Origin: Candidatus Wolfebacteria bacterium
Lineage (GTDB): Bacteria > Patescibacteriota > Minisyncoccia > Phycocordibacterales > GCA-2401445
Length of the DNA stretch: 40,076 bases
Direction of reading: 5' to 3'
Assembly: GCA_002401445.1 (NCBI GenBank)
Contig: NVTD01000005.1
Span: 1 to 40,076, forward strand
Part shown: positions 8,608 through 40,076 of the stretch, one piece after another
Numbering within the stretch: position 1 is the first letter of the stretch
Layout: the number at the start of each line of letters is the position of its first letter
Notes under the pieces: generated by a model
Database searches by the model: none
Told to the model about the DNA's origin: nothing
Seen by the model: only the letters and a program-made list of their open reading frames with translations
Position numbers and translations under genes: made by a program

Positions 8608-8638
8608 ACTAACTTAGAGCTCCGAGCTCTAAGTTAGT
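8608..8638. repeat. REP-like palindrome R1 at the 3' end of the RAYT gene
   Basis: Perfect palindrome with 15-bp arms ACTAACTTAGAGCTC / GAGCTCTAAGTTAGT and a single central base (8623). It encodes the last residues of the transposase (TNLELGALS), and the stop codon lies in its outer arm. Confidence 0.9.
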
Positions 8639-9259
8639 AGTCTCCTTATTTTTTCTCTTTTTTGAAATACCTGCCGATTCTACTACAAATTTTTCAAACT
8701 CATTCATGTCTACAAATTGCCCTTTTACAATACTTATATCTTTGGCTATGGAATCTACATGATTTATATTATCCCAACTAGACGCTGTAAGGTTATCCGA
8801 TTCTGAAATACCGTGAATCCATCTGTTTAGACTTACATATGCAAATACATGTCTAAGTTGTACATCAGAATTTATATGCGCAACCTTGAAGACACCTTGA
8901 AAAAGAGAGCCATTTCTATCATTTCTCTCGTTAAAATACATTGTATATCCACCTAAGCGACGCATGAACGTACTAATGCCATTCTCAACTTTTTGCTGTA
9001 CCAAAAAATGATAGTGGTTGGGATTAAGACTATATGCAACAAATTCTACCAACTTAGAGCTCCGAGCTCTAAGTTTTTCTTTCTGTTTGAATGAAAACTG
9101 ATAAATACTTCCAACTGGATCAGTAGAATTAAACACGAGCATACTCTCACGGAATCTATTCACATCATACTTATCAGAAAAAATATTTCTCTTATCAACT
9201 CCTCTATTATAGATATGATAATATTCGCCATTAGCGAGTTGTTCCTTTCTTCTAGGCAT
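8609..9259 (-). CDS. REP-associated tyrosine transposase (RAYT, Y1/HUH family)
   Basis: 216 aa, starting MPRRKEQLANGEYYHIYNRG, the usual RAYT opening. The HUH motif is in SLNPNHYHFLV (about 90-100). MRRLGGYTMYFNERNDRNGSLFQG and AYVSLNRWIHG carry the helix with the probable catalytic tyrosine (family YxHLNP). Such enzymes nick single-stranded palindromic REP sequences. Residues KLRARSSKL (about 64-72) are encoded by an internal copy of the palindrome, and the last nine residues by another. The start ATG at 9259 has AAGGAG 12 nt upstream, inside a third hairpin. Probably functional or recently so: no frame disruption. Confidence 0.88.
   Translation of the reverse strand: MPRRKEQLANGEYYHIYNRGVDKRNIFSDKYDVNRFRESMLVFNSTDPVGSIYQFSFKQKEKLRARSSKLVEFVAYSLNPNHYHFLVQQKVENGISTFMRRLGGYTMYFNERNDRNGSLFQGVFKVAHINSDVQLRHVFAYVSLNRWIHGISESDNLTASSWDNINHVDSIAKDISIVKGQFVDMNEFEKFVVESAGISKKRKNKETTNLELGALS
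9051..9075. repeat. REP-like palindrome R2 inside the RAYT coding sequence
   Basis: 12-bp arms AACTTAGAGCTC / GAGCTCTAAGTT around c9063. The central 23 bases are the same as in R1. It is read in frame as LRARSSKL within the transposase. Confidence 0.9.
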
Positions 9260-11025: not shown

Positions 11026-11748
11026 CTATTCTATCTCACAATCAGTTACAACAGTAACGTTCTTTAAGTCATGTAATATGTATGCTGGCAATTCATGTGA
11101 TGGTCCAGGAGCACTCAGTACTTGCGTCAATATTTCTGCTTTCTCTTCACCTCGAGCAAACACCAAAACACTTTGCACTTCTTCTGCAAGAAACGTGTTA
11201 GTAACCGTAACCCTCATAGGATATTTATTTTTATCTCCTGCGTCATATCCAATCACCCATGCAGGTCCATTGAACTGAGTAATGAAAATATCTTCATCTT
11301 TTGGATACGGCATCATACCGGCAACGTGACCGTCAGTCCCTATACCGAGAGTTGCGATTACAACTCCGTCAGGATTATCATTTCTCCACCCACGTAGTGC
11401 ATGTTCGAATCGCTCAGTGAGTCCAGAAATATCTTCTCCAACCTGGACAGTAGTATCAATGAATGAACATCCTGCCTCCTTTGCGCTTTTATAAAACCGT
11501 GTTTCTTTTAGCTGTGCGAAATTGTTTATCTCAGGATCTTCCGAGTATCTCTCGTCTAATACGGCAATAGTTAAATATGAACCGAGAACAACAGGGCTAA
11601 CATGCTCCAATAGAGACATAGCAGACCCCCCAGAGGTCAATAACAGCACAGGGGTATGTTGCGCATGTTCGAGAATATTCTCGAGCTCAATTCCAGCCCG
11701 CTCATCAGGAGCCTCAATATCGTGAATGATTGTATGTGTATTTTGCAT
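11026..11748 (-). CDS. pgl: 6-phosphogluconolactonase (DevB/NagB-like fold)
   Basis: 240 aa. VLLLTSGGSAMSLLEHV is the sugar-phosphate binding loop and VLDERYSEDPEINNFAQLKE matches the family DER...SN block. GIGTDGHVAGMMP corresponds to the catalytic GxGxDGHxASLFP signature. It hydrolyses 6-phosphogluconolactone, the product of Zwf, whose gene lies at 12793-14025 on the same strand; one divergent gene sits between them. The start ATG at 11748 is 9 nt from a -10 hexamer, so the mRNA is nearly leaderless. Confidence 0.88.
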   Translation of the reverse strand: MQNTHTIIHDIEAPDERAGIELENILEHAQHTPVLLLTSGGSAMSLLEHVSPVVLGSYLTIAVLDERYSEDPEINNFAQLKETRFYKSAKEAGCSFIDTTVQVGEDISGLTERFEHALRGWRNDNPDGVVIATLGIGTDGHVAGMMPYPKDEDIFITQFNGPAWVIGYDAGDKNKYPMRVTVTNTFLAEEVQSVLVFARGEEKAEILTQVLSAPGPSHELPAYILHDLKNVTVVTDCEIE

Positions 11749-27292: not shown

Positions 27293-27517
27293 GAACCCAT
27301 CACTAGCCTCATGTCGTATGGAAGGTTCTAAATTTTTAGCGTTAAAAGAAAATAAGGAGCGGAAAGCGACTATATTTTCTTAATCCTTTAGGGCAAATTG
27401 TATATTTTGACGAAGCAATGTGAGCATTGTTGAGAAAAAATAGACAATTTGCAGCAGAAATTTAAAACTTTCAAACGGCAAGTCTTTGTATGTTACGTTG
27501 AGGCTTTTGATGGGTTC
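27293..27517. mobile_element. Foldback element copy 1 (MITE-like), over the 3' end of tgt
   Basis: Terminal inverted repeats GAACCCATCACTAGCCTCA (27293) and its near-complement ending GATGGGTTC (27517). Inner stem CAAATTGTaTATTTT pairs with AAAAATAgACAATTTG around the conserved core GACGAAGCAATGTGAGCATT. An extra stem AAGAAAATA/TATTTTCTT (27346-27354, 27373-27381) makes it longer than copies 3 and 4. Flanks TCA and CTA do not form a clean duplication. The right end supplies the last residues and stop of tgt. Confidence 0.7.
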
Positions 27518-33411: not shown

Positions 33412-34044
33412 TTAAAGTAAAGCAGCAGACTCTTCGCAGATACCTTCCTTTTCACTAGTACTTGTGTTTTCTGGCATATTGTTTATCACAAAAACCTTGC
33501 TTCTGATCTCTGTATCAGTATCATTCACTTTGAAAATTTTTATGTAGTATTCACCTGCCCAAACAGGCCCCACCTCCCAATCTATATTCTTTGAATCCTC
33601 CTCTACGGTATTCTCTCTTTCCAAGCCACTTGCGCCAGGTTCGACTGCTATTCGCGTACCTGCATCAACAAGCATAACGCTCATTGAATCTACTGTCATG
33701 GATAAATCCCAAGACATGGGGTATGTGCATCCAATGTAGACTTCTGTGTCGCCCTGAGGAAAGGTGAAAGATAATTCATGGACTGTAGATGTAGAGACCG
33801 CCTCTAAGTCGGTAGATGTGGCAATATCTTCAGTATCTGGAATATCTGCAATATCTAACGAGATGTGCGGAGTTGTTGAAGCTCGCTTTGTAACCGGCCT
33901 ACTAAGAGATTGATAAACTAAATGGTTGTTTGCCAGATTAGAAATGCTCAGGTCATCAAAGACTTGATTAAATTGGCCTATAGACCAATAACCAAAAAAG
34001 GCTACACTACCAACCAAGACAAAAGTTACTAGAATGATACGCAT
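33412..34044 (-). CDS. Membrane-anchored exported protein, 210 aa
   Basis: MRIILVTFVLVGSVAFFGYW is a signal anchor. A Ser/Thr-rich spacer follows (ASTTPHISLDIADIPDTEDI, TSTDLEAVSTSTV). Then comes a beta-rich domain with the look of an Ig-like or pilus-associated fold (ELSFTFPQGDTEVYIGCTYP, MSWDLSMTVDSMSVMLVD, WAGEYYIKIFKVNDTDTEIR). Two cysteines could form a disulphide. No family recognised. It is downstream of the Tat genes on the same strand, but its N-terminus lacks a twin-arginine motif. Confidence 0.6.
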   Translation of the reverse strand: MRIILVTFVLVGSVAFFGYWSIGQFNQVFDDLSISNLANNHLVYQSLSRPVTKRASTTPHISLDIADIPDTEDIATSTDLEAVSTSTVHELSFTFPQGDTEVYIGCTYPMSWDLSMTVDSMSVMLVDAGTRIAVEPGASGLERENTVEEDSKNIDWEVGPVWAGEYYIKIFKVNDTDTEIRSKVFVINNMPENTSTSEKEGICEESAALL

Positions 34045-34093: not shown

Positions 34094-34273
34094 CTATTTT
34101 ACTTCTTTCTCTTCTGTTGTGGTCAAGTTCTTGTCTACATCTGAGAAACCGTTTCTGATGTGTCTGATTGCTTCTCCTATACTACGAGTAAGTTCTGGGA
34201 TTTTCTTTGAACCAAATAGCAAAAGCAAAATTGCTGCCAAAATGATTATTTCCCTAGGTCCTAGTCCAAGCAT
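34094..34273 (-). CDS. tatA: TatA/E-type twin-arginine translocase subunit, copy 1
   Basis: 59 aa: MLGLGPREIIILAAILLLLF, then GSKKIPELTRSIGEAIRHIR and a charged tail (NGFSDVDKNLTTTEEKEVK). One transmembrane helix, the FGSKKIPEL hinge and an amphipathic helix are the full TatA layout. TatA oligomers form the pore for folded proteins. It is the most distal of four tatA-like units after tatC. Intergenic regions are about 110 nt and AT-rich (ATTATTTATTATTAAT), without clear Shine-Dalgarno sites. Confidence 0.93.
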   Translation of the reverse strand: MLGLGPREIIILAAILLLLFGSKKIPELTRSIGEAIRHIRNGFSDVDKNLTTTEEKEVK

Positions 34274-34386: not shown

Positions 34387-34545
34387 TTATTTCTCTAGAC
34401 TCTTATCATCATCAGAGAAACCGTTCCTGATGTGTCTGATTGCTTCTCCAACGTTACGAGCAAGTTCTGGGATCTTTTTTGAGCCAAATAGCAAAAGCAA
34501 AATTCCTGCTAAAATAACTATTTCTCTAGGTCCTAATCCAAACAT
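34387..34545 (-). CDS. tatA: TatA/E-type twin-arginine translocase subunit, copy 2
   Basis: 52 aa: MFGLGPREIVILAGILLLLF, GSKKIPELARNVGEAIRHIR, NGFSDDDKSLEK. The helix and hinge are nearly identical to copies 1 and 4; the acidic tail is shorter. The upstream spacer repeats the ATTATTTATTATTAAT motif of the other copies, so the unit that duplicated includes the intergenic region. Confidence 0.92.
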   Translation of the reverse strand: MFGLGPREIVILAGILLLLFGSKKIPELARNVGEAIRHIRNGFSDDDKSLEK

Positions 34546-34674: not shown

Positions 34675-34906
34675 GAACCTGTCTACAATCTCACCGCAAT
34701 GATCAAAAATGAAGCTTGTCGACTGAAATCACGAAATTTGCACTACAAGGGCATTTCCATTTTCATAGTCGTTGCACTCCTTGAAAATTGGTCCACTACA
34801 AATCATTTATTTTTCCTCAGCAATGTTCACATTGCCTCGCCAAAATACATAATTTGTAACACAAATTTCCATAATTTCAGAACGACATGAGATCGTAGAC
34901 AAGTTC
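34675..34906. mobile_element. Foldback element copy 2 (MITE-like), inserted in a tatA paralogue
   Basis: Starts GAACCTGTCTACAATCTCA and ends with the near-complement (GAGATCGTAGACAAGTTC). The target duplication TTA is exact (34672-34674 and 34907-34909). The core lies in the opposite orientation to the other copies: on the minus strand it reads TTTTGGCGAGGCAATGTGAA, with stem ACAAATTATGTA. It sits between codon GGC-TTC of the broken tatA and GATGAAGAG, which continues the tatA-like acidic tail. Confidence 0.8.
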
Positions 34907-35032
34907 TTAGAAGCCGTTCCTGATGTGTCTGATTGCTTCTCCAATGTTGCGAGCAAGTTCTGGGATTTTTTTTGATCCAAACAACAAAACTGCCAAAAAA
35001 TACTAGAATAATTATTTACCTAGGCCCTAACC
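34907..35032 (-). pseudogene. tatA: Broken tatA copy 3
   Basis: On the minus strand GGGCCTAGG (the GPR codons), KIPELA and EAIRHIRNGF stretches are recognisable at over 80 percent DNA identity with copy 2. The start region and the transmembrane helix contain indels and stops. The C-terminus is cut by foldback element copy 2 directly after NGF; beyond the element GATGAAGAGG resumes the acidic tail. Confidence 0.85.
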
Positions 35033-35048
35033 AGGGTAGAAACATATA

Positions 35049-35228
35049 CTATTTTACTTCTTTTTTTTCTGCTGTGTTCGTCTTCTCCTCTTCATCTGAG
35101 AATCCGTTCCTGAGGTGTTGGATAGATTCTACAATACTACGGGTAAGCTCTGGAATTTTCTTTGAGCCAAATAGCAAAAGCAAAATTGCTGCTAAAATAA
35201 CTATTTCCCTAGGTCCTAGTCCAAACAT
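35049..35228 (-). CDS. tatA: TatA/E-type twin-arginine translocase subunit, copy 4
   Basis: 59 aa: MFGLGPREIVILAAILLLLF, GSKKIPELTRSIVESIQHLR, then an acidic/basic tail NGFSDEEEKTNTAEKKEVK. Its first 20 nt overlap the end of tatC in another frame, so translation is probably coupled. It is the tatA nearest tatC and likely the ancestral copy. The amphipathic helix differs from copies 1 and 2 (VESIQHL against GEAIRHI). Confidence 0.93.
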   Translation of the reverse strand: MFGLGPREIVILAAILLLLFGSKKIPELTRSIVESIQHLRNGFSDEEEKTNTAEKKEVK

Positions 35229-35937
35229 GATAGTTTTTATTATTTATTAATATCGTTACTTCATATAATACCATAAGTGGTAATACCATCGCTAGCAACG
35301 ACAAGCCGTCTGTTGGTGGAAGTAAAGAAGTTAACACAAATATTAGAAAATAAGCCATTCGCCTCTGCTTTCTGAGAAATTCAGTTGTTACCACCCCCAT
35401 TCTTATACACATAGTTAAGAAAAGTGGAAATTCAAAAACTAATCCCAATAAAGCAGAGGTGACAAACATTTGTGATAAAAATTTGCTAATATTCCAATAA
35501 TTGGCAATCCCTAAACTAATGTTGAGAGAGGCTAGTACTTGAAGAGCGGTGTAAAGGATAGAAAAACCATAAGAAAATCCTGCAATAAAGAGGAGTACGC
35601 TTATAGGCGTAGATTTTAATAATCCCTTTCGCTCGTTTTTAGTTAACCCAGGTAAGATGAAGGCATAAAAGCTATAAATGACATACGGGACGCAAACAAT
35701 AATAGCCAGGAAAAAACCAAAATCCATCGCGACCTCAATATACTGAAATGGAGAAGTAATCGTCACTGTAACGTCAGTCAGCTTAATAAGCTCCAATAGT
35801 CTTTTCAGAATTACTGACGTAGAAAAAAAACCTATAACAAAGAATACTACAAATAAAATCAAACCCTTGTACAATCTGCGGCGCAAATCCTCCAAAAAAG
35901 GCATGAACTTTGCTATATTTTCTTTAAATAGCTCCAT
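35209..35937 (-). CDS. tatC: Sec-independent protein translocase TatC
   Basis: 242 aa with six membrane helices. The N-terminal FLEDLRRRLYKGLI matches the signal-binding LxELRxRL motif. ITSPFQYIEVAMDFGFFLAI is the F-x-Y periplasmic region, FEFPLFL lies in helix 4, and RRMAYFLIFVLTSLLPPTDG with PLMVLYE is the conserved C-terminal part. TatC recognises twin-arginine signals. The ATG at 35937 is 5 nt after the preceding stop and the stop overlaps tatA copy 4, so hydrolase, tatC and tatA form one operon. Confidence 0.94.
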   Translation of the reverse strand: MELFKENIAKFMPFLEDLRRRLYKGLILFVVFFVIGFFSTSVILKRLLELIKLTDVTVTITSPFQYIEVAMDFGFFLAIIVCVPYVIYSFYAFILPGLTKNERKGLLKSTPISVLLFIAGFSYGFSILYTALQVLASLNISLGIANYWNISKFLSQMFVTSALLGLVFEFPLFLTMCIRMGVVTTEFLRKQRRMAYFLIFVLTSLLPPTDGLSLLAMVLPLMVLYEVTILINNKNYHVWTRT

Positions 35938-35942
35938 CGGGG

Positions 35943-37406
35943 TCAGTTAGCTGTTGCGGTGGCTGTTTCCTGTATTATAGCGGGTTCTGGTGAGATTATT
36001 GGCTCTACTACTGGAGAGGCGGCTACAGGAGCGGCTACTGGTGTTTCCTCTATTATAGTGGGCTCCACTGAGATTACTGGTTCTACTACTGGAGTAGGGG
36101 CCGTAGAAGTGGCTACTGGGGTTTCCTCGAACGAGGTGGGATTCTCTGATGTCGTAGTATAGGTAGTTGATGTTGTAGTGCTTGGTGTTGAAGTTGCAGC
36201 CTCTGGTGTCGGTATAGCTACGACAGGTGTCGAAGTTGCTACGGCAGGTGTTGGTATAGCTACGACAGGTGTCGAAGTAGCCATAGGGGCACTTGGTGTC
36301 GAAGTAGCTACGGCAGGTGTTGAAGTAGATATAGAAATACCTGGTGTTAAAGTAGGTATAGAAGTACTTTGTGTCGAAGTTGCAGTAGCTGGTGTTGAAG
36401 TAGCTACAGGAGTCTCCGGCACAGTGTTGAATGTGTTAGTTGTCAGATTTACAACCACAGGTGTAGTGCTTGCGGTTGCTCCTGCTCCTGCTCCTGCGTA
36501 TGCAGGTGTTGAGGTGGCAATGCCAGGTGTAGTGCTGGCCGTCGCTCCTGCAGTTGCTCCTGCGCTTGCTCCTCCGTATGCAGGTGTTGAAGTGGCCATT
36601 CCTGGTGTAGTGCTTGCGGTTGCTCCTGCTATTGCTCCTGAATATCCAGGTGTCGAGGTAGCCATTCCTGGTGTTGAGGTTGCCATTCCAGGTGTCGAGG
36701 TTGCCATTCCAGGTGTAGCGTCGACTGTTGATGATATATATGAAGGTGTTGAAGTAGCATTAGTATTAAACCCAAATCCGTTAGAAACTACACTACCATC
36801 TGGTGCCATACGATGTCTATTGAGCCACTCTGCTACCGCTGTAACGCCCTCTTGCCACGATGCGTAAATGCGAAGATTACCACCGTCATCGTTGCCAACA
36901 TTGCCTGGATTTAGCGTTCTCACCGCTAGACCAGCCGTACCAAAACTCGAATCTTGTTGCATCATAGCCATCAGCAACCTAATATCTATGTCATAAGCAG
37001 CAGCACCACTCATAACCATAGCTCCAGTTACAGGACTGCCCCGATATCCACTACTGATATACTTATCAACCTTTTCGACAGTATTCATCACTGCCATTTT
37101 ACTCAAAATATTATACACTTTTTCTTCATGCAAAGGATCTGTAGCATAAGGAGTGATATCATATCTGCCCAAAACAGAGACTGATCCATCAGTCATCGCT
37201 TCCGCAAGAGTTGATTCTGTAACCTCAGATGATGCAGAGGTATCAACCAACAAATTTAATTTGAAAATAGTGTCCTCTAGACCGATGATCTCTACTACGG
37301 CAATATTCATCCTCTCCAAATCACCACTCATCCGAGCATAATCTCTGGATAGTTTAAACTCCCTTAATCTATTATTAAGGAGGTGTATGAGCTCATCTAT
37401 TTTCAT
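35943..37406 (-). CDS. Glucosaminidase-like protein with a long Thr/Ser/Pro repeat tail
   Basis: 487 aa. Residues 1-100 are helical. Residues about 120-200 (SGYRGSPVTGAMVMSGAAAY, LMAMMQQDSSFGTAG, NPGNVG, YASWQEGVTAVAEWLNRHR) resemble the muramidase/endo-glucosaminidase fold with a likely catalytic region around QQDSSFGT. The remaining 280 residues are low-complexity repeats of TSTP (heptads GMATSTP, then SAGATAGATASTTP) ending in Val/Pro/Glu blocks. No Sec or twin-arginine signal is visible, although the gene leads the tatC-tatA operon. It may be exported by another route or act inside. Confidence 0.6.
   Translation of the reverse strand: MKIDELIHLLNNRLREFKLSRDYARMSGDLERMNIAVVEIIGLEDTIFKLNLLVDTSASSEVTESTLAEAMTDGSVSVLGRYDITPYATDPLHEEKVYNILSKMAVMNTVEKVDKYISSGYRGSPVTGAMVMSGAAAYDIDIRLLMAMMQQDSSFGTAGLAVRTLNPGNVGNDDGGNLRIYASWQEGVTAVAEWLNRHRMAPDGSVVSNGFGFNTNATSTPSYISSTVDATPGMATSTPGMATSTPGMATSTPGYSGAIAGATASTTPGMATSTPAYGGASAGATAGATASTTPGIATSTPAYAGAGAGATASTTPVVVNLTTNTFNTVPETPVATSTPATATSTQSTSIPTLTPGISISTSTPAVATSTPSAPMATSTPVVAIPTPAVATSTPVVAIPTPEAATSTPSTTTSTTYTTTSENPTSFEETPVATSTAPTPVVEPVISVEPTIIEETPVAAPVAASPVVEPIISPEPAIIQETATATAN
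36650..36720. repeat. 21-bp tandem repeats encoding GMATSTP
   Basis: Three nearly identical 21-bp units in direct array within the hydrolase tail, with further decayed units to 36180. Likely to vary in copy number between strains. Confidence 0.7.
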
Positions 37407-37459: not shown

Positions 37460-37690
37460 TTTTGTCCCATACTGTCCTTGATATGTATAAGAACCTGTCT
37501 ACAATCTCATGTCGGACAGAAATTTTAGAAATTTTTGCCACAAATTGTGTATTTTGACGAAGCAATGTGAGCATTGTTGAGGAAAAAGACGCAATTTGTG
37601 GTGAAAATTAATGAATTTTTGTCGACAAACTTGATCTTATTGCTTCGTGATGAGATCGTAGACAGGTTCTAAGGACAGTATGGGACAAAA
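37460..37690. repeat. Outer 20-bp inverted repeat enclosing foldback copy 3
   Basis: TTTTGTCCCATACTGTCCTT (37460-37479) and its perfect complement (37671-37690). Without the inserted element this would be a 20-bp hairpin with a short loop, so copy 3 landed in the loop of an older palindrome. Confidence 0.8.
37491..37669. mobile_element. Foldback element copy 3 (MITE-like)
   Basis: 179 bp. Ends GAACCTGTCTACAATCTCA and its near-complement; exact TAA duplication (37488-37490, 37670-37672). Inner stem CCACAAATTG/CAATTTGTGG, conserved GTATTTTGACGAAGCAATG, apical stem CAATG/CATTG, then TTGAGGAAAA. Confidence 0.85.
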
Positions 37691-37721
37691 AGACATCTAG
37701 ACACGATATATGAGTCGATAA

Positions 37722-37891
37722 GAACCTGTTCACAATCTCATGTCGGCTTGAAATTTTTGCCACATAGCACGTATTTTGACGAGGCATATCTAGATACGTT
37801 TAGGAAAAGTACTTGTTATGTGGTGAAAATTAATAAACATCAACCGACAAGGTTGATGTTTATGATTCGCGGTGAGATTTTGAACAGGCTA
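37722..37891. mobile_element. Foldback element copy 4 (MITE-like), decayed right end
   Basis: About 170 bp. Starts GAACCTGTTCACAATCTCA after TAA; the right end (TGAGATTTTGAACAGG, then CTA) has lost the last bases. Inner stem CCACATAgCAcGTA pairs with TACtTGtTATGTGG and apical stem ATATC with GATAc; both differ in sequence from copy 3 yet still pair. An extra hairpin ATAAACATCAACC/GGTTGATGTTTAT lies in the right half. The 37407-37919 gap holds only copies 3 and 4 and the outer repeat. Confidence 0.8.
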
Positions 37892-37919: not shown

Positions 37920-38405
37920 TTATTTTAGTCCCAAGAACTTGGCCACAGTAAGGGTCTTCATCAGCTGAGCGTTCTCCGCTGTACTCAAACCACTTCCAGT
38001 GTTGATTGTGACCAAACCAGCAGAGTTCTGGGATATCACCTGTGTAACTGTATTAGCTAGAATTGCATTTTCTAGATCAAATATATTGTTGTTAGAACCA
38101 GCAAGTCTTACTGAATATGTTGTATCAGGACTAAAAAATACCTCATAAACATCTGTTTGAGTAGAGTTCGATGCATTTAAAATTTCTATCAATCTTGCAA
38201 AGGTAACCCCAGCAACAATTACCTCTGTATTATGGTTGTGTGTATCTTGAAACACAATGCCTGTATCTGCCGCCTCAAGGGCTTTTAAATCTGTTCTTAG
38301 CGTATTAGTATTTAACTCATACAAACTACCACTGATAAGGGTTAAATCAGCTTGTGGAATTATTATTCTGAGGGTTGCCCCACTGTAATCAATGGTGGTT
38401 GCCAT
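37920..38405 (-). CDS. Phage-structural-like protein, 161 aa
   Basis: It opens MATTIDYSGATLRIIIPQAD. The middle part DTGIVFQDTHNHNTEVIVAG, then VTFARLIEIL and VRLAGSNNNIFDLENAIL with QNSAGLV, follows a pattern I associate with small phage virion or tail-associated proteins (FPDTHxHNTEV...VxLxGxNSNI...NSAGLI). Mostly beta, no signal peptide. A degraded second copy of its N-terminus is at 39080-39162. No other clear phage gene (terminase, portal, capsid) is in the window, so this is a domesticated or remnant function. Confidence 0.6.
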   Translation of the reverse strand: MATTIDYSGATLRIIIPQADLTLISGSLYELNTNTLRTDLKALEAADTGIVFQDTHNHNTEVIVAGVTFARLIEILNASNSTQTDVYEVFFSPDTTYSVRLAGSNNNIFDLENAILANTVTQVISQNSAGLVTINTGSGLSTAENAQLMKTLTVAKFLGLK

Positions 38406-38474
38406 ATTCTAATCCGCGTTAAATCCTTGAAGTTGCGTATTTACTTTAATTACCTCACTCTATACATATCCACA

Positions 38475-38924
38475 CTATTCACGGTTACCTGCTAACCAAT
38501 ATTTGAAATCTTTAACGTCTTCCGGTAAAACACCGATTGATTCTGCTTGCTGACGGAAATTTCCCGGGATTTCCTCTTTCATTTTTTCAGCAAATTGACT
38601 AAATTCTTTAAATTTTCTTGTGCTAATTTTTTCCTCTTCCTTTTCCTCTTTATCTTCCTGCTTATCTTCCCGTTTCTGTTCCATTTTATTTTTCATTATT
38701 GCAGCAAATTCACTAAACGGTTTTACATAAACTTCTTTTGCCTCCTCTATTTCTTCAGGTTTAGCTTCCTCTGTTTCTTTTTCATCATTTTCACCATATT
38801 CAGTATGACAAAATGAACATTTCGTATTTTCTTTTGTGAGCTCGAAATCTTTCTCACAATTTTTACACTTTACTATTTTTTTTCCATCCTTATTCTTAAG
38901 CATTTGGGCTAATAAAAAAAACAT
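38475..38924 (-). CDS. Zinc-ribbon plus coiled-coil protein with shared C-terminal module, 149 aa
   Basis: The N-terminal zinc ribbon CKNC...CSFCH (residues about 20-40) is followed by a highly charged Glu/Lys coil with two FxEFAAIM/FSQFAEKM segments. The last 32 residues (IPGNFRQQAESIGVLPEDVK, then DFKYWLAGNRE) match the end of the protein at 39624 almost exactly. The start may be the ATG at 38924 or 38903. It precedes the phage-like gene in the same orientation. Possibly an adaptor that docks through the C-terminal module. Function unknown. Confidence 0.6.
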   Translation of the reverse strand: MFFLLAQMLKNKDGKKIVKCKNCEKDFELTKENTKCSFCHTEYGENDEKETEEAKPEEIEEAKEVYVKPFSEFAAIMKNKMEQKREDKQEDKEEKEEEKISTRKFKEFSQFAEKMKEEIPGNFRQQAESIGVLPEDVKDFKYWLAGNRE

Positions 38925-39079
38925 TTGAATTATTAGGGGTTAGAAGTACGGACAGCCGCTACTGTCTGTAGTGTTAGTGTTGATAAAAATTGTGCAGAAT
39001 CAGACTCAAACATCTTATGGGAATAACTCCACCGTCTATAACTCGTGCGGACATATTTATATCATTAATTCTACCACCA

Positions 39080-39162
39080 ATTCCTCCACTAACAAATGGT
39101 TAAGTCAGCTTGTGGAATTACTATTTTGAAGTTGCCCACTATAATTTATTGTTTTTGCCATG
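39080..39162 (-). pseudogene. Degraded copy of the phage-structural-like gene (5' end)
   Basis: From the ATG at 39162, which overlaps the end of the upstream ORF, ATGGCAAAAACAATAAATTA and then ATTCCACAAGCTGA align with the start of the gene at 37920-38405. Two bases are lost around the GGGGCAACC region, shifting the frame to a stop. In 38930-39080 I see no intact gene. Confidence 0.7.
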
Positions 39163-39622
39163 CTTTTAGTTGCTCCTTTAGTGCGTCTCCCTTCAAACCA
39201 GACTTGGATTCGTTAAACGATCGTCGTTCTTTGTTGATTTTCTCTACCTCCGAGTGGAGCATAGTGTCATTTGCTACCATAGCTTTCTTCATTTGCTTAA
39301 TCTGTCCTTCCTTTAATTCAAACAAATCTAAAAGTTCATTACGTTCATCTTGAACGAGCGAAGCGGCATGGTTCATAGTTGAAGCAAGTTTCTGAAGATA
39401 TTCAATTTTCTCCTCCGCAGAAAATTTAAGGTACGTTTTGCCCCACGCTATCTTTGGTGGTCGTCTTGACATAAACTTACTATCGATTTTATGAAACCCC
39501 TGCGCAACAAAATCCGCCTCCATATTGTCTTTTAAAATTGCTTGACGTGCTTTACTTACTTGACGTTCTTTACTTTCTTTACTTTCTTTACTTTCTTTAC
39601 TTTCTTTACTTGCTTCATCCAT
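39146..39622 (-). CDS. Coiled-coil protein with SKE repeats, 158 aa
   Basis: From the ATG at 39622, one base after the preceding stop (TAAT-ATG); a GTG at 39634 overlapping that gene is the alternative. The N-terminus is a 9-bp microsatellite giving SKESKESKESKE. Then SRRPPKIAWGKTYLKFSAEE and a long helical coil (KIEYLQKLASTMNHAASLVQ, RRSFNESKSGLKGDALKEQL). Its last codons overlap the broken phage-like gene. No family recognised. Operon partner of 39624. Confidence 0.6.
   Translation of the reverse strand: MDEASKESKESKESKESKERQVSKARQAILKDNMEADFVAQGFHKIDSKFMSRRPPKIAWGKTYLKFSAEEKIEYLQKLASTMNHAASLVQDERNELLDLFELKEGQIKQMKKAMVANDTMLHSEVEKINKERRSFNESKSGLKGDALKEQLKAWQKQ
39567..39611. repeat. 9-bp microsatellite in the coil gene
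   Basis: About five tandem copies of TTTACTTTC (plus strand), coding SKE units. The period is a multiple of three, so copy-number changes would lengthen the protein without frameshift. Confidence 0.8.
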
Positions 39623-39623
39623 A

Positions 39624-40067
39624 TTATTCTTCACGGTTATCTATTAACCAATATTTGAAATCTTTAACGTCTTCGGGTAAAACACCGACTGCCTCAGCTT
39701 TCTGCCGGAAGTTTCCTGGAATTTTCTCTTTCAGTTTTTCCCTAAAATTAACAAATTCTTTAGTTTGTTTTACACTAATTTTTTTTAGTTCTGTTTTTTC
39801 TTCCTTTTTCTCTTCTTCCTCCTTCTTTTCCTTTTTTTCTTCTTCCTGTTTCTCTTCCGTTATGTCACCAAATTCACCAAATTCACTTATCACAATTTTT
39901 TTCTCTTCCTTTTTCTCTTCCGTTACTCCACTAAATTCATCGAATGGTTTTATACTAATTTTCTTCCCTTCTTTTTTCTCCTCCGTTATTCCACTAAATT
40001 CATCGAATGGTTTTATACTAATTTTCTTCCCTTCAGTCTTCTTTTTTATTGTTTTCATATTATTCAT
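39624..40067 (-). CDS. Tandem-repeat charged protein with shared C-terminal module, 147 aa
   Basis: Residues 12-75 hold three repeats of about 20 aa of the form KKISIKPFDEFSGITEEKKE; the first two are almost identical in DNA. A Glu/Lys coil follows, then the C-terminal module IPGNFRQKAEAVGVLPEDVK, DFKYWL and NREE, shared with the protein at 38475. The FDEFSG/FGEFGD motifs look like short linear docking motifs. The ATG at 40067 is 9 bases from the window edge, so the true start could lie beyond. Coupled to the gene at 39146. Function unknown. Confidence 0.6.
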   Translation of the reverse strand: MNNMKTIKKKTEGKKISIKPFDEFSGITEEKKEGKKISIKPFDEFSGVTEEKKEEKKIVISEFGEFGDITEEKQEEEKKEKKEEEEKKEEKTELKKISVKQTKEFVNFREKLKEKIPGNFRQKAEAVGVLPEDVKDFKYWLIDNREE

Positions 40068-40076
40068 CTAAAATTA

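Follow-up and report, generated by a model that had tools for sequence, protein, structure and literature searches.

The DNA stretch analyzed here, referred to as the window, comprises 40,076 nucleotides from Candidatus Wolfebacteria and represents the entire contig C14 (NVTD01000005.1) of a 1.12-Mb genome that is distributed over 62 contigs. All four minus-strand open reading frames that an initial sequence-only reading had described at its right-hand end are indeed present: a lead gene for a protein of 147 amino acids (39624..40067), the gene for a coiled-coil protein that we term A5 (39146..39622), a second lead gene encoding a zinc-ribbon protein of 149 amino acids (38475..38924), and the gene for a 161-amino-acid protein, A1 (37920..38405). 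On the same strand lie the genes for a protein of 487 amino acids, here designated G (35943..37406), for TatC (35209..35937), and for three TatA-like proteins (35049..35228, 34387..34545 and 34094..34273).

The products of the two lead genes possess unlike N-termini, a CxxC..CxxC zinc ribbon in the 149-amino-acid protein versus KKISIKPFDEFSG repeats in the 147-amino-acid protein. Each continues with a charged linker and a C-terminal module, which sequence comparison places at 39627..39722 and at 38478..38570 (both minus strand; the second copy reads IPGNFRQ..GVLPEDVKDFKYWL..NRE). The C-terminal parts of the two proteins match at 56% over 94 residues (E=5e-24), and their DNA is 74% identical over 255 bp (E=9e-43; 39630-39881 versus 38478-38717), so that the proposed common module is borne out. 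The claimed difference between the N-termini likewise holds, but what had been read as three FDEFSG repeats are two exact copies and one FGEFGD. The view that the module is a general docking domain found no support: outside of the two window genes it was not found among approximately 28,000 open reading frames of at least 30 amino acids from the compared loci, which leaves it, within this set, in two genes of a single genome. An IMG/VR search with the FDEFSG-repeat lead gene returned no viral relative, and no zinc-ribbon homologue was present in about 200 viral loci; homologues of the zinc-ribbon protein in two other Patescibacteria are placed between the Tat-signal protein described below and the fibre protein A2. 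Matches of the zinc-ribbon protein to PADLOC LmuB (E=6e-5) and to Pfam Lipoprotein_10 were rejected, as both cover the charged stretch.

The last 29 bp of the window (40048..40076) are identical to positions 1787-1815 of contig C57, where they make up the 3' end of A3; the stop codon of that gene and the start of the lead gene at 39624-40067 overlap. The block consequently runs past the window, as had been anticipated, and the part beyond it can be read in C57: A3 (638 amino acids; C57:1799-3715), A2 (922 amino acids; C57:4131-6899), and the Tat-signal protein A4 (313 amino acids; C57:7322-8263). In the joined order, the Tat-signal protein is followed by A2, A3, the module gene, A5, A1, the glucosaminidase-like protein G, TatC, and the three TatA proteins. 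The join is based on the 29 bp and on synteny; independent support comes from the virus G148, in which the A4 domain, A2, A3, A5, and A1 occur in one piece, and from two other Patescibacteria, in each of which one contig holds this series. At its left end, C57 codes over 1.8 kb (L004 1-1786) for a truncated TonB-dependent receptor of proteobacterial type, which is atypical of Patescibacteria and therefore indicates a chimeric join at this position. A haemagglutinin-repeat-like fragment at the right end (L004 ~11164-11632) is equally atypical, and this end is probably chimeric too. Between the Tat-signal gene and this fragment, C57 encodes Ig-like and cohesin-like surface proteins (L004 8531-11127); membrane-anchored proteins of this kind also flank the Tat-A4 gene on its other side in the loci L011 (10153-15461), L222 and L223, and they are a second constant neighbor of the fibre locus in several of the genomes.

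The sequence-only reading had viewed the region as two parallel blocks, each ending in a phage-structural-like gene that is frameshifted in the block led by 39624-40067 and intact in the other. Neither part of this view fits the alignments fully. The blocks do not correspond over their whole length, since A5 has no counterpart in the block 38475-37920, and the idea that the broken gene is simply a frameshifted 161-amino-acid gene was rejected. Instead, this gene is a composite of an A1-type 5' piece and an A2-type 3' piece. The former (39095..39161, minus strand) contains MAKTINYSG and KIVIPQADLTI, corresponding to A1 residues 1-9 and 13-23, in two frames. The latter (38933..39037, minus strand; KMFESDSAQFLS..QTVAAVRTSN) shares 74% DNA identity with C57:4131-4230 and matches the A2 C-terminus at 73% over 26 amino acids. 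The duplication is therefore partial and decayed; since a further A2 3' scrap resides at C57:4001-4072, fragmentary duplication has been repeated at this locus. Collectively, the scraps of A1 and A2 genes show duplication and decay under way. Between A1 and G (37460-37890), we also observed two related elements of about 190 bp with 21-bp terminal inverted repeats (AGAACCTGT..ACAGGTTCT) and internal hairpins; with 28 matches across the genome, including window positions 34794-34909 and 27394-27451, they appear by their sequence to be a MITE-like family. Proteins resembling REP-associated Y1 (TnpA-REP) transposases, which they look like from sequence, are encoded at 8609-9259 of the window and at 19187-19942 of L011.

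A1, the product of the last gene of the phage module, has 67 relatives among IMG/VR candidates and A2 has 302; the suggestion that the 161-amino-acid protein is phage-related is thus confirmed by dozens of relatives in metagenomic Caudoviricetes contigs. A5 (158 amino acids from its ATG, or 162 from an upstream GTG) has 20 viral members. Identities to the proteins of G148, the closest virus, amount to 64% for A2, 42% for A3, 66% for A1, and 50% for A5, whose G148 relative occupies the same position. The order A4 domain-A2-A3-(A5)-A1 is fixed in about 100 IMG/VR loci, some of which are overlapping views of one contig, and uncultivated Caudoviricetes such as IMGVR_UViG_3300021511_000016 possess an appendage module with homologous A4 domain, A2, A3, A5, and A1 in the same order. 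PHROGs identified terminase, portal, major head protein, and head protease genes in the viral carriers, and in G148 terminase-, portal- and capsid-like genes precede the module. The sequence-only reading had named, as the outcome that would speak against it, a 161-amino-acid protein devoid of phage homologues in a region lacking structural genes; the opposite was found, as A1, A2, A3, and A5 are virion-module genes whose families recur in numerous viral contigs alongside genes for terminase, portal, and capsid. These viruses, in turn, differ from the window locus in lacking the Tat signal, TatA/TatC, the zinc ribbon, and a full G.

AlphaFold2 predicted A1 and the A2 core with a pLDDT of 90 each; A1 is 64% identical to the viral protein A0A1B1IX72 of BFVD (TM 0.89), and 78 columns of the A2 model resemble a chain of the phage GP4 portal-tail complex (8jov; probability 1.00). 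Profile and fold searches of the PDB gave no match for A1, searches with A1, A2, and A3 of PHROGs, Pfam, NCBIfam, PADLOC, and INPHARED gave nothing significant, and neither A1 nor A2 matched any of the 50,697 INPHARED records. In a control search, a portal protein retrieved 1,512 phage records from INPHARED, so that the blanks are real at this sensitivity; the A1 and A2 families are therefore known here from uncultivated viruses only. A small cysteine-rich protein encoded between A2 and A3 in the cellular locus L170 (14380-14847) has a similar counterpart in nine viral loci and looks like a retained phage accessory gene.

TatC and TatA of the window belong to the Tat translocase families. TatC matches PF00902 (E=4e-43) and TIGR00945 (E=6e-38), the latter at 1.7 bits under the cut-off, and the three TatA-like proteins match TIGR01411 with E-values of 1e-11, 5e-15 and 5e-14 in the order given above, one of them passing the cut-off. 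Cellular A4 proteins combine N-terminal FLPNxxSFLL repeats with a conserved KRNFLKxAxxxGxGxIA signal. This signal contains KR, not RR, and lies about 40-170 residues from the N-terminus, behind a long N-terminal extension; RR signals occur in other loci of our set, and the Pfam TAT_signal model recognizes the A4 protein at E=0.007 only, under its cut-off. Both the FLPNxxSFLL repeats and the KRNFLK-type signal were absent from all viral A4 homologues examined, some of which have the A4 domain fused to collagen repeats instead, and about 200 viral loci yielded no TatA, TatC, or convincing Tat signal. A2, A3, A5, and A1 have no recognisable export signals; only A4 carries one. Single-span membrane proteins of about 200 amino acids with similar N-termini are encoded after TatA in the window (33412-34044), in L191 (1472-2098), and in L203 (10349-10942), possibly as an extra constant component.

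G, whose gene is conserved next to those for A1 and TatC, consists of a helical N-terminus, a glucosaminidase-like domain, and a TSTP-rich tail. Its match to Pfam PF01832 reaches E=7e-4 in the window and 2e-6 in a homologue, with a best score of 28.9 bits compared with a cut-off of 30.2, and a candidate catalytic acidic position is occupied by either E or Q in an alignment of five homologues. The helical N-terminus recurs as a small open reading frame after one type of viral fibre gene (L242, L244); judged from this similarity, part of G may therefore be phage-derived too.

The locus is common to three Patescibacteria, in which it has cellular flanks. The other two, JACOYO010000005.1 (genome G014) and JAHJRN010000020.1, are both labelled as Patescibacteria/Parcubacteria metagenome-assembled genomes and share the order Tat-signal A4 protein, zinc ribbon, A2, A3, a small coiled-coil gene, A1, and G. 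Contigs C2 and C5 of G014 share an overlap of 81 identical bp that lies within the TSTP repeat of G; TatC and TatA of this organism therefore follow G, giving the same A1-G-TatC-TatA arrangement as in the window. No TatC was found in the genome to which JAHJRN010000020.1 belongs; this contig ends where TatC would lie. Two Patescibacteria encode surface proteins with FG-GAP-like repeats inside the fibre locus (L011 5013-6617; L170 16747-18225), and none was seen in the genome of the window.

The linkage of Tat genes to phage fibres extends beyond this gene family. TatC was detected over the cut-off in 16 of 148 related genomes; all four genomes with Tat-A4 proteins are among them, and so are all five that carry phrog_9017, an unrelated tail-fibre family whose genes lie within about 3 kb of TatC in each case (chance P=8e-6 for genome co-occurrence alone). 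The phrog_9017 loci encode PHROGs tail-fibre or virion proteins, with a small Tat-signal protein beside them in four of the five, and tail-fibre or virion proteins in other Tat loci match PHROGs with E-values down to 2e-176. Paceibacterial Tat loci with phrog_9017, phrog_7760, or phrog_19943 resemble the window in that a phage fibre or virion protein has a small Tat-signal protein and TatC as its immediate neighbors; they differ from it in their fibre families and in a short Tat-signal protein that is not part of the same polypeptide as the phage domain. In a class-wide set, Tat-A4 proteins preceded still other cassettes: a protein of 1104 amino acids with G and TatC in G305; proteins of 882, 808, and 945 amino acids with TatC and TatA in G471; and a protein of 831 amino acids in G239. 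IMG/VR contains 38 relatives of the 1104-amino-acid type and four of the 831-amino-acid type, some on contigs over 100 kb. The single viral match of the 882-amino-acid cassette lies on a 5-kb contig without phage hallmark genes and was not taken as proof of a viral origin. The constant part is the Tat anchor and, often, G, with a phage fibre cassette as the variable part. The earlier notion of variable heads on a common structure applies to the locus as a whole; the 30-residue module, found in two genes of one genome, lends it no support.

In our assessment, the genes of this locus are probably appendage genes of a tailed phage that have been exapted as exchangeable, Tat-exported and cell-anchored surface fibres. 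According to this model, the virion-appendage module was taken over by the cell, and its virion domain A4 gained, by fusion, a twin-arginine-type signal and an N-terminal region of repeats. The TatA and TatC proteins encoded at the locus would carry A4 to the membrane, where it probably stays anchored. A2, A3, A5, and A1 would fold and assemble in the cytoplasm, as in the phage, and, as only A4 bears a signal, all of them including the 922-amino-acid A2 are assumed to cross together with A4 by hitchhiker export. Such export is established for PaoABC and HybOC of E. coli (PMC4273604), in which one signal-bearing subunit likewise carries signal-less partners; these complexes are cofactor-containing enzymes, whereas the window locus encodes fibres for which hitchhiking is proposed only. 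The product would be a surface fibre that binds another cell or surface. The glucosaminidase-like G might make room in the wall or attach to it, and the zinc-ribbon and FDEFSG-repeat proteins could act in the cytoplasm in assembly or docking. Cassettes are exchanged at this position: in related Tat loci it is taken by phage fibre genes of unrelated families.

The gene scraps and the high identity of A1, A2, A3, and A5 to G148 are also what an ordinary prophage remnant would offer, in which virion genes decay without a cellular role and the Tat genes are incidental neighbors. We nevertheless judge this explanation unlikely, because the same locus recurs with cellular flanks in three Patescibacteria, the Tat-type signal is restricted to the cellular copies, long open A1, A2, A3, and A5 genes are kept, unrelated fibre cassettes adjoin Tat in other genomes too, and searches of five cell genomes (G000, G014, G008, G045, G149) failed to find the terminase and portal of G148. 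The domestication put forward initially is supported by this conserved cellular setting, the Tat-type anchor, and the absence of the closest virus's terminase and portal among the detected genes. Decoy or anti-phage activity, in which displayed phage receptor-binding proteins would block receptors or bind phages, accords with the phage ancestry of the fibres and their variation between species, but PADLOC gave no credible match, its one hit being that to the charged stretch of the zinc-ribbon protein, and we consider this function quite improbable. Slightly less probable still is the released tail-like or tailocin-like particle that had also been envisaged. In its favor are the nature of the module, whose products are virion appendage proteins, and the match of part of the A2 model to a portal-tail complex chain. 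However, the 20 kb considered in G014, JAHJRN, G471, and G305 contain no recognisable gene for a tube, sheath, baseplate, tape measure, portal, lysis, or head protein, tube, sheath, and baseplate genes likewise went unrecognised within 20 kb of the syntenic loci L011 and L170 and in L224 and L225, and a Tat signal anchor suits a membrane-attached fibre, not a particle released by lysis. By the tests made, the locus is neither a complete prophage nor a tailocin.

The placement of fibre genes beside Tat suggests, in our model of exapted, cell-anchored fibres, that viral recognition fibres are displayed on the cell's own surface. More tentatively, Tat might serve Patescibacteria as a dedicated display platform, a constant anchored base on which fibre cassettes captured from different phages are swapped to recognise the host cells that these small bacteria attach to. 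The locus provides named candidates for the means by which small epibiotic Patescibacteria recognise and hold on to their hosts. The coupling of Tat and fibres would also explain why genomes as reduced as these have kept Tat, and with loci of this type the idea that bacteria have made surface organs out of phage receptor-binding modules becomes testable. In the open-access, published literature searched, we found no description of what the rare Tat systems of Patescibacteria export, nor of Tat-linked phage-fibre loci in these bacteria.

In tailocins and extracellular contractile injection systems, bacteria retain parts of phage tails and use them on other cells. These systems keep the tube and the baseplate, and they act from inside or after release by lysis; at the window locus, by contrast, appendage genes and Tat were all that was found. 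Closer in kind are PblA and PblB of Streptococcus mitis, phage tail-fibre-type proteins that are displayed on the cell as adhesins. They are akin to the proposed fibres in surface display and adhesion, and unlike them in belonging to a prophage; to our knowledge, neither a dedicated Tat export locus nor exchangeable cassettes have been reported for PblA and PblB. By analogy, the locus described here would work like known phage-derived adhesins, but with export through Tat and with fibre cassettes that can be swapped.
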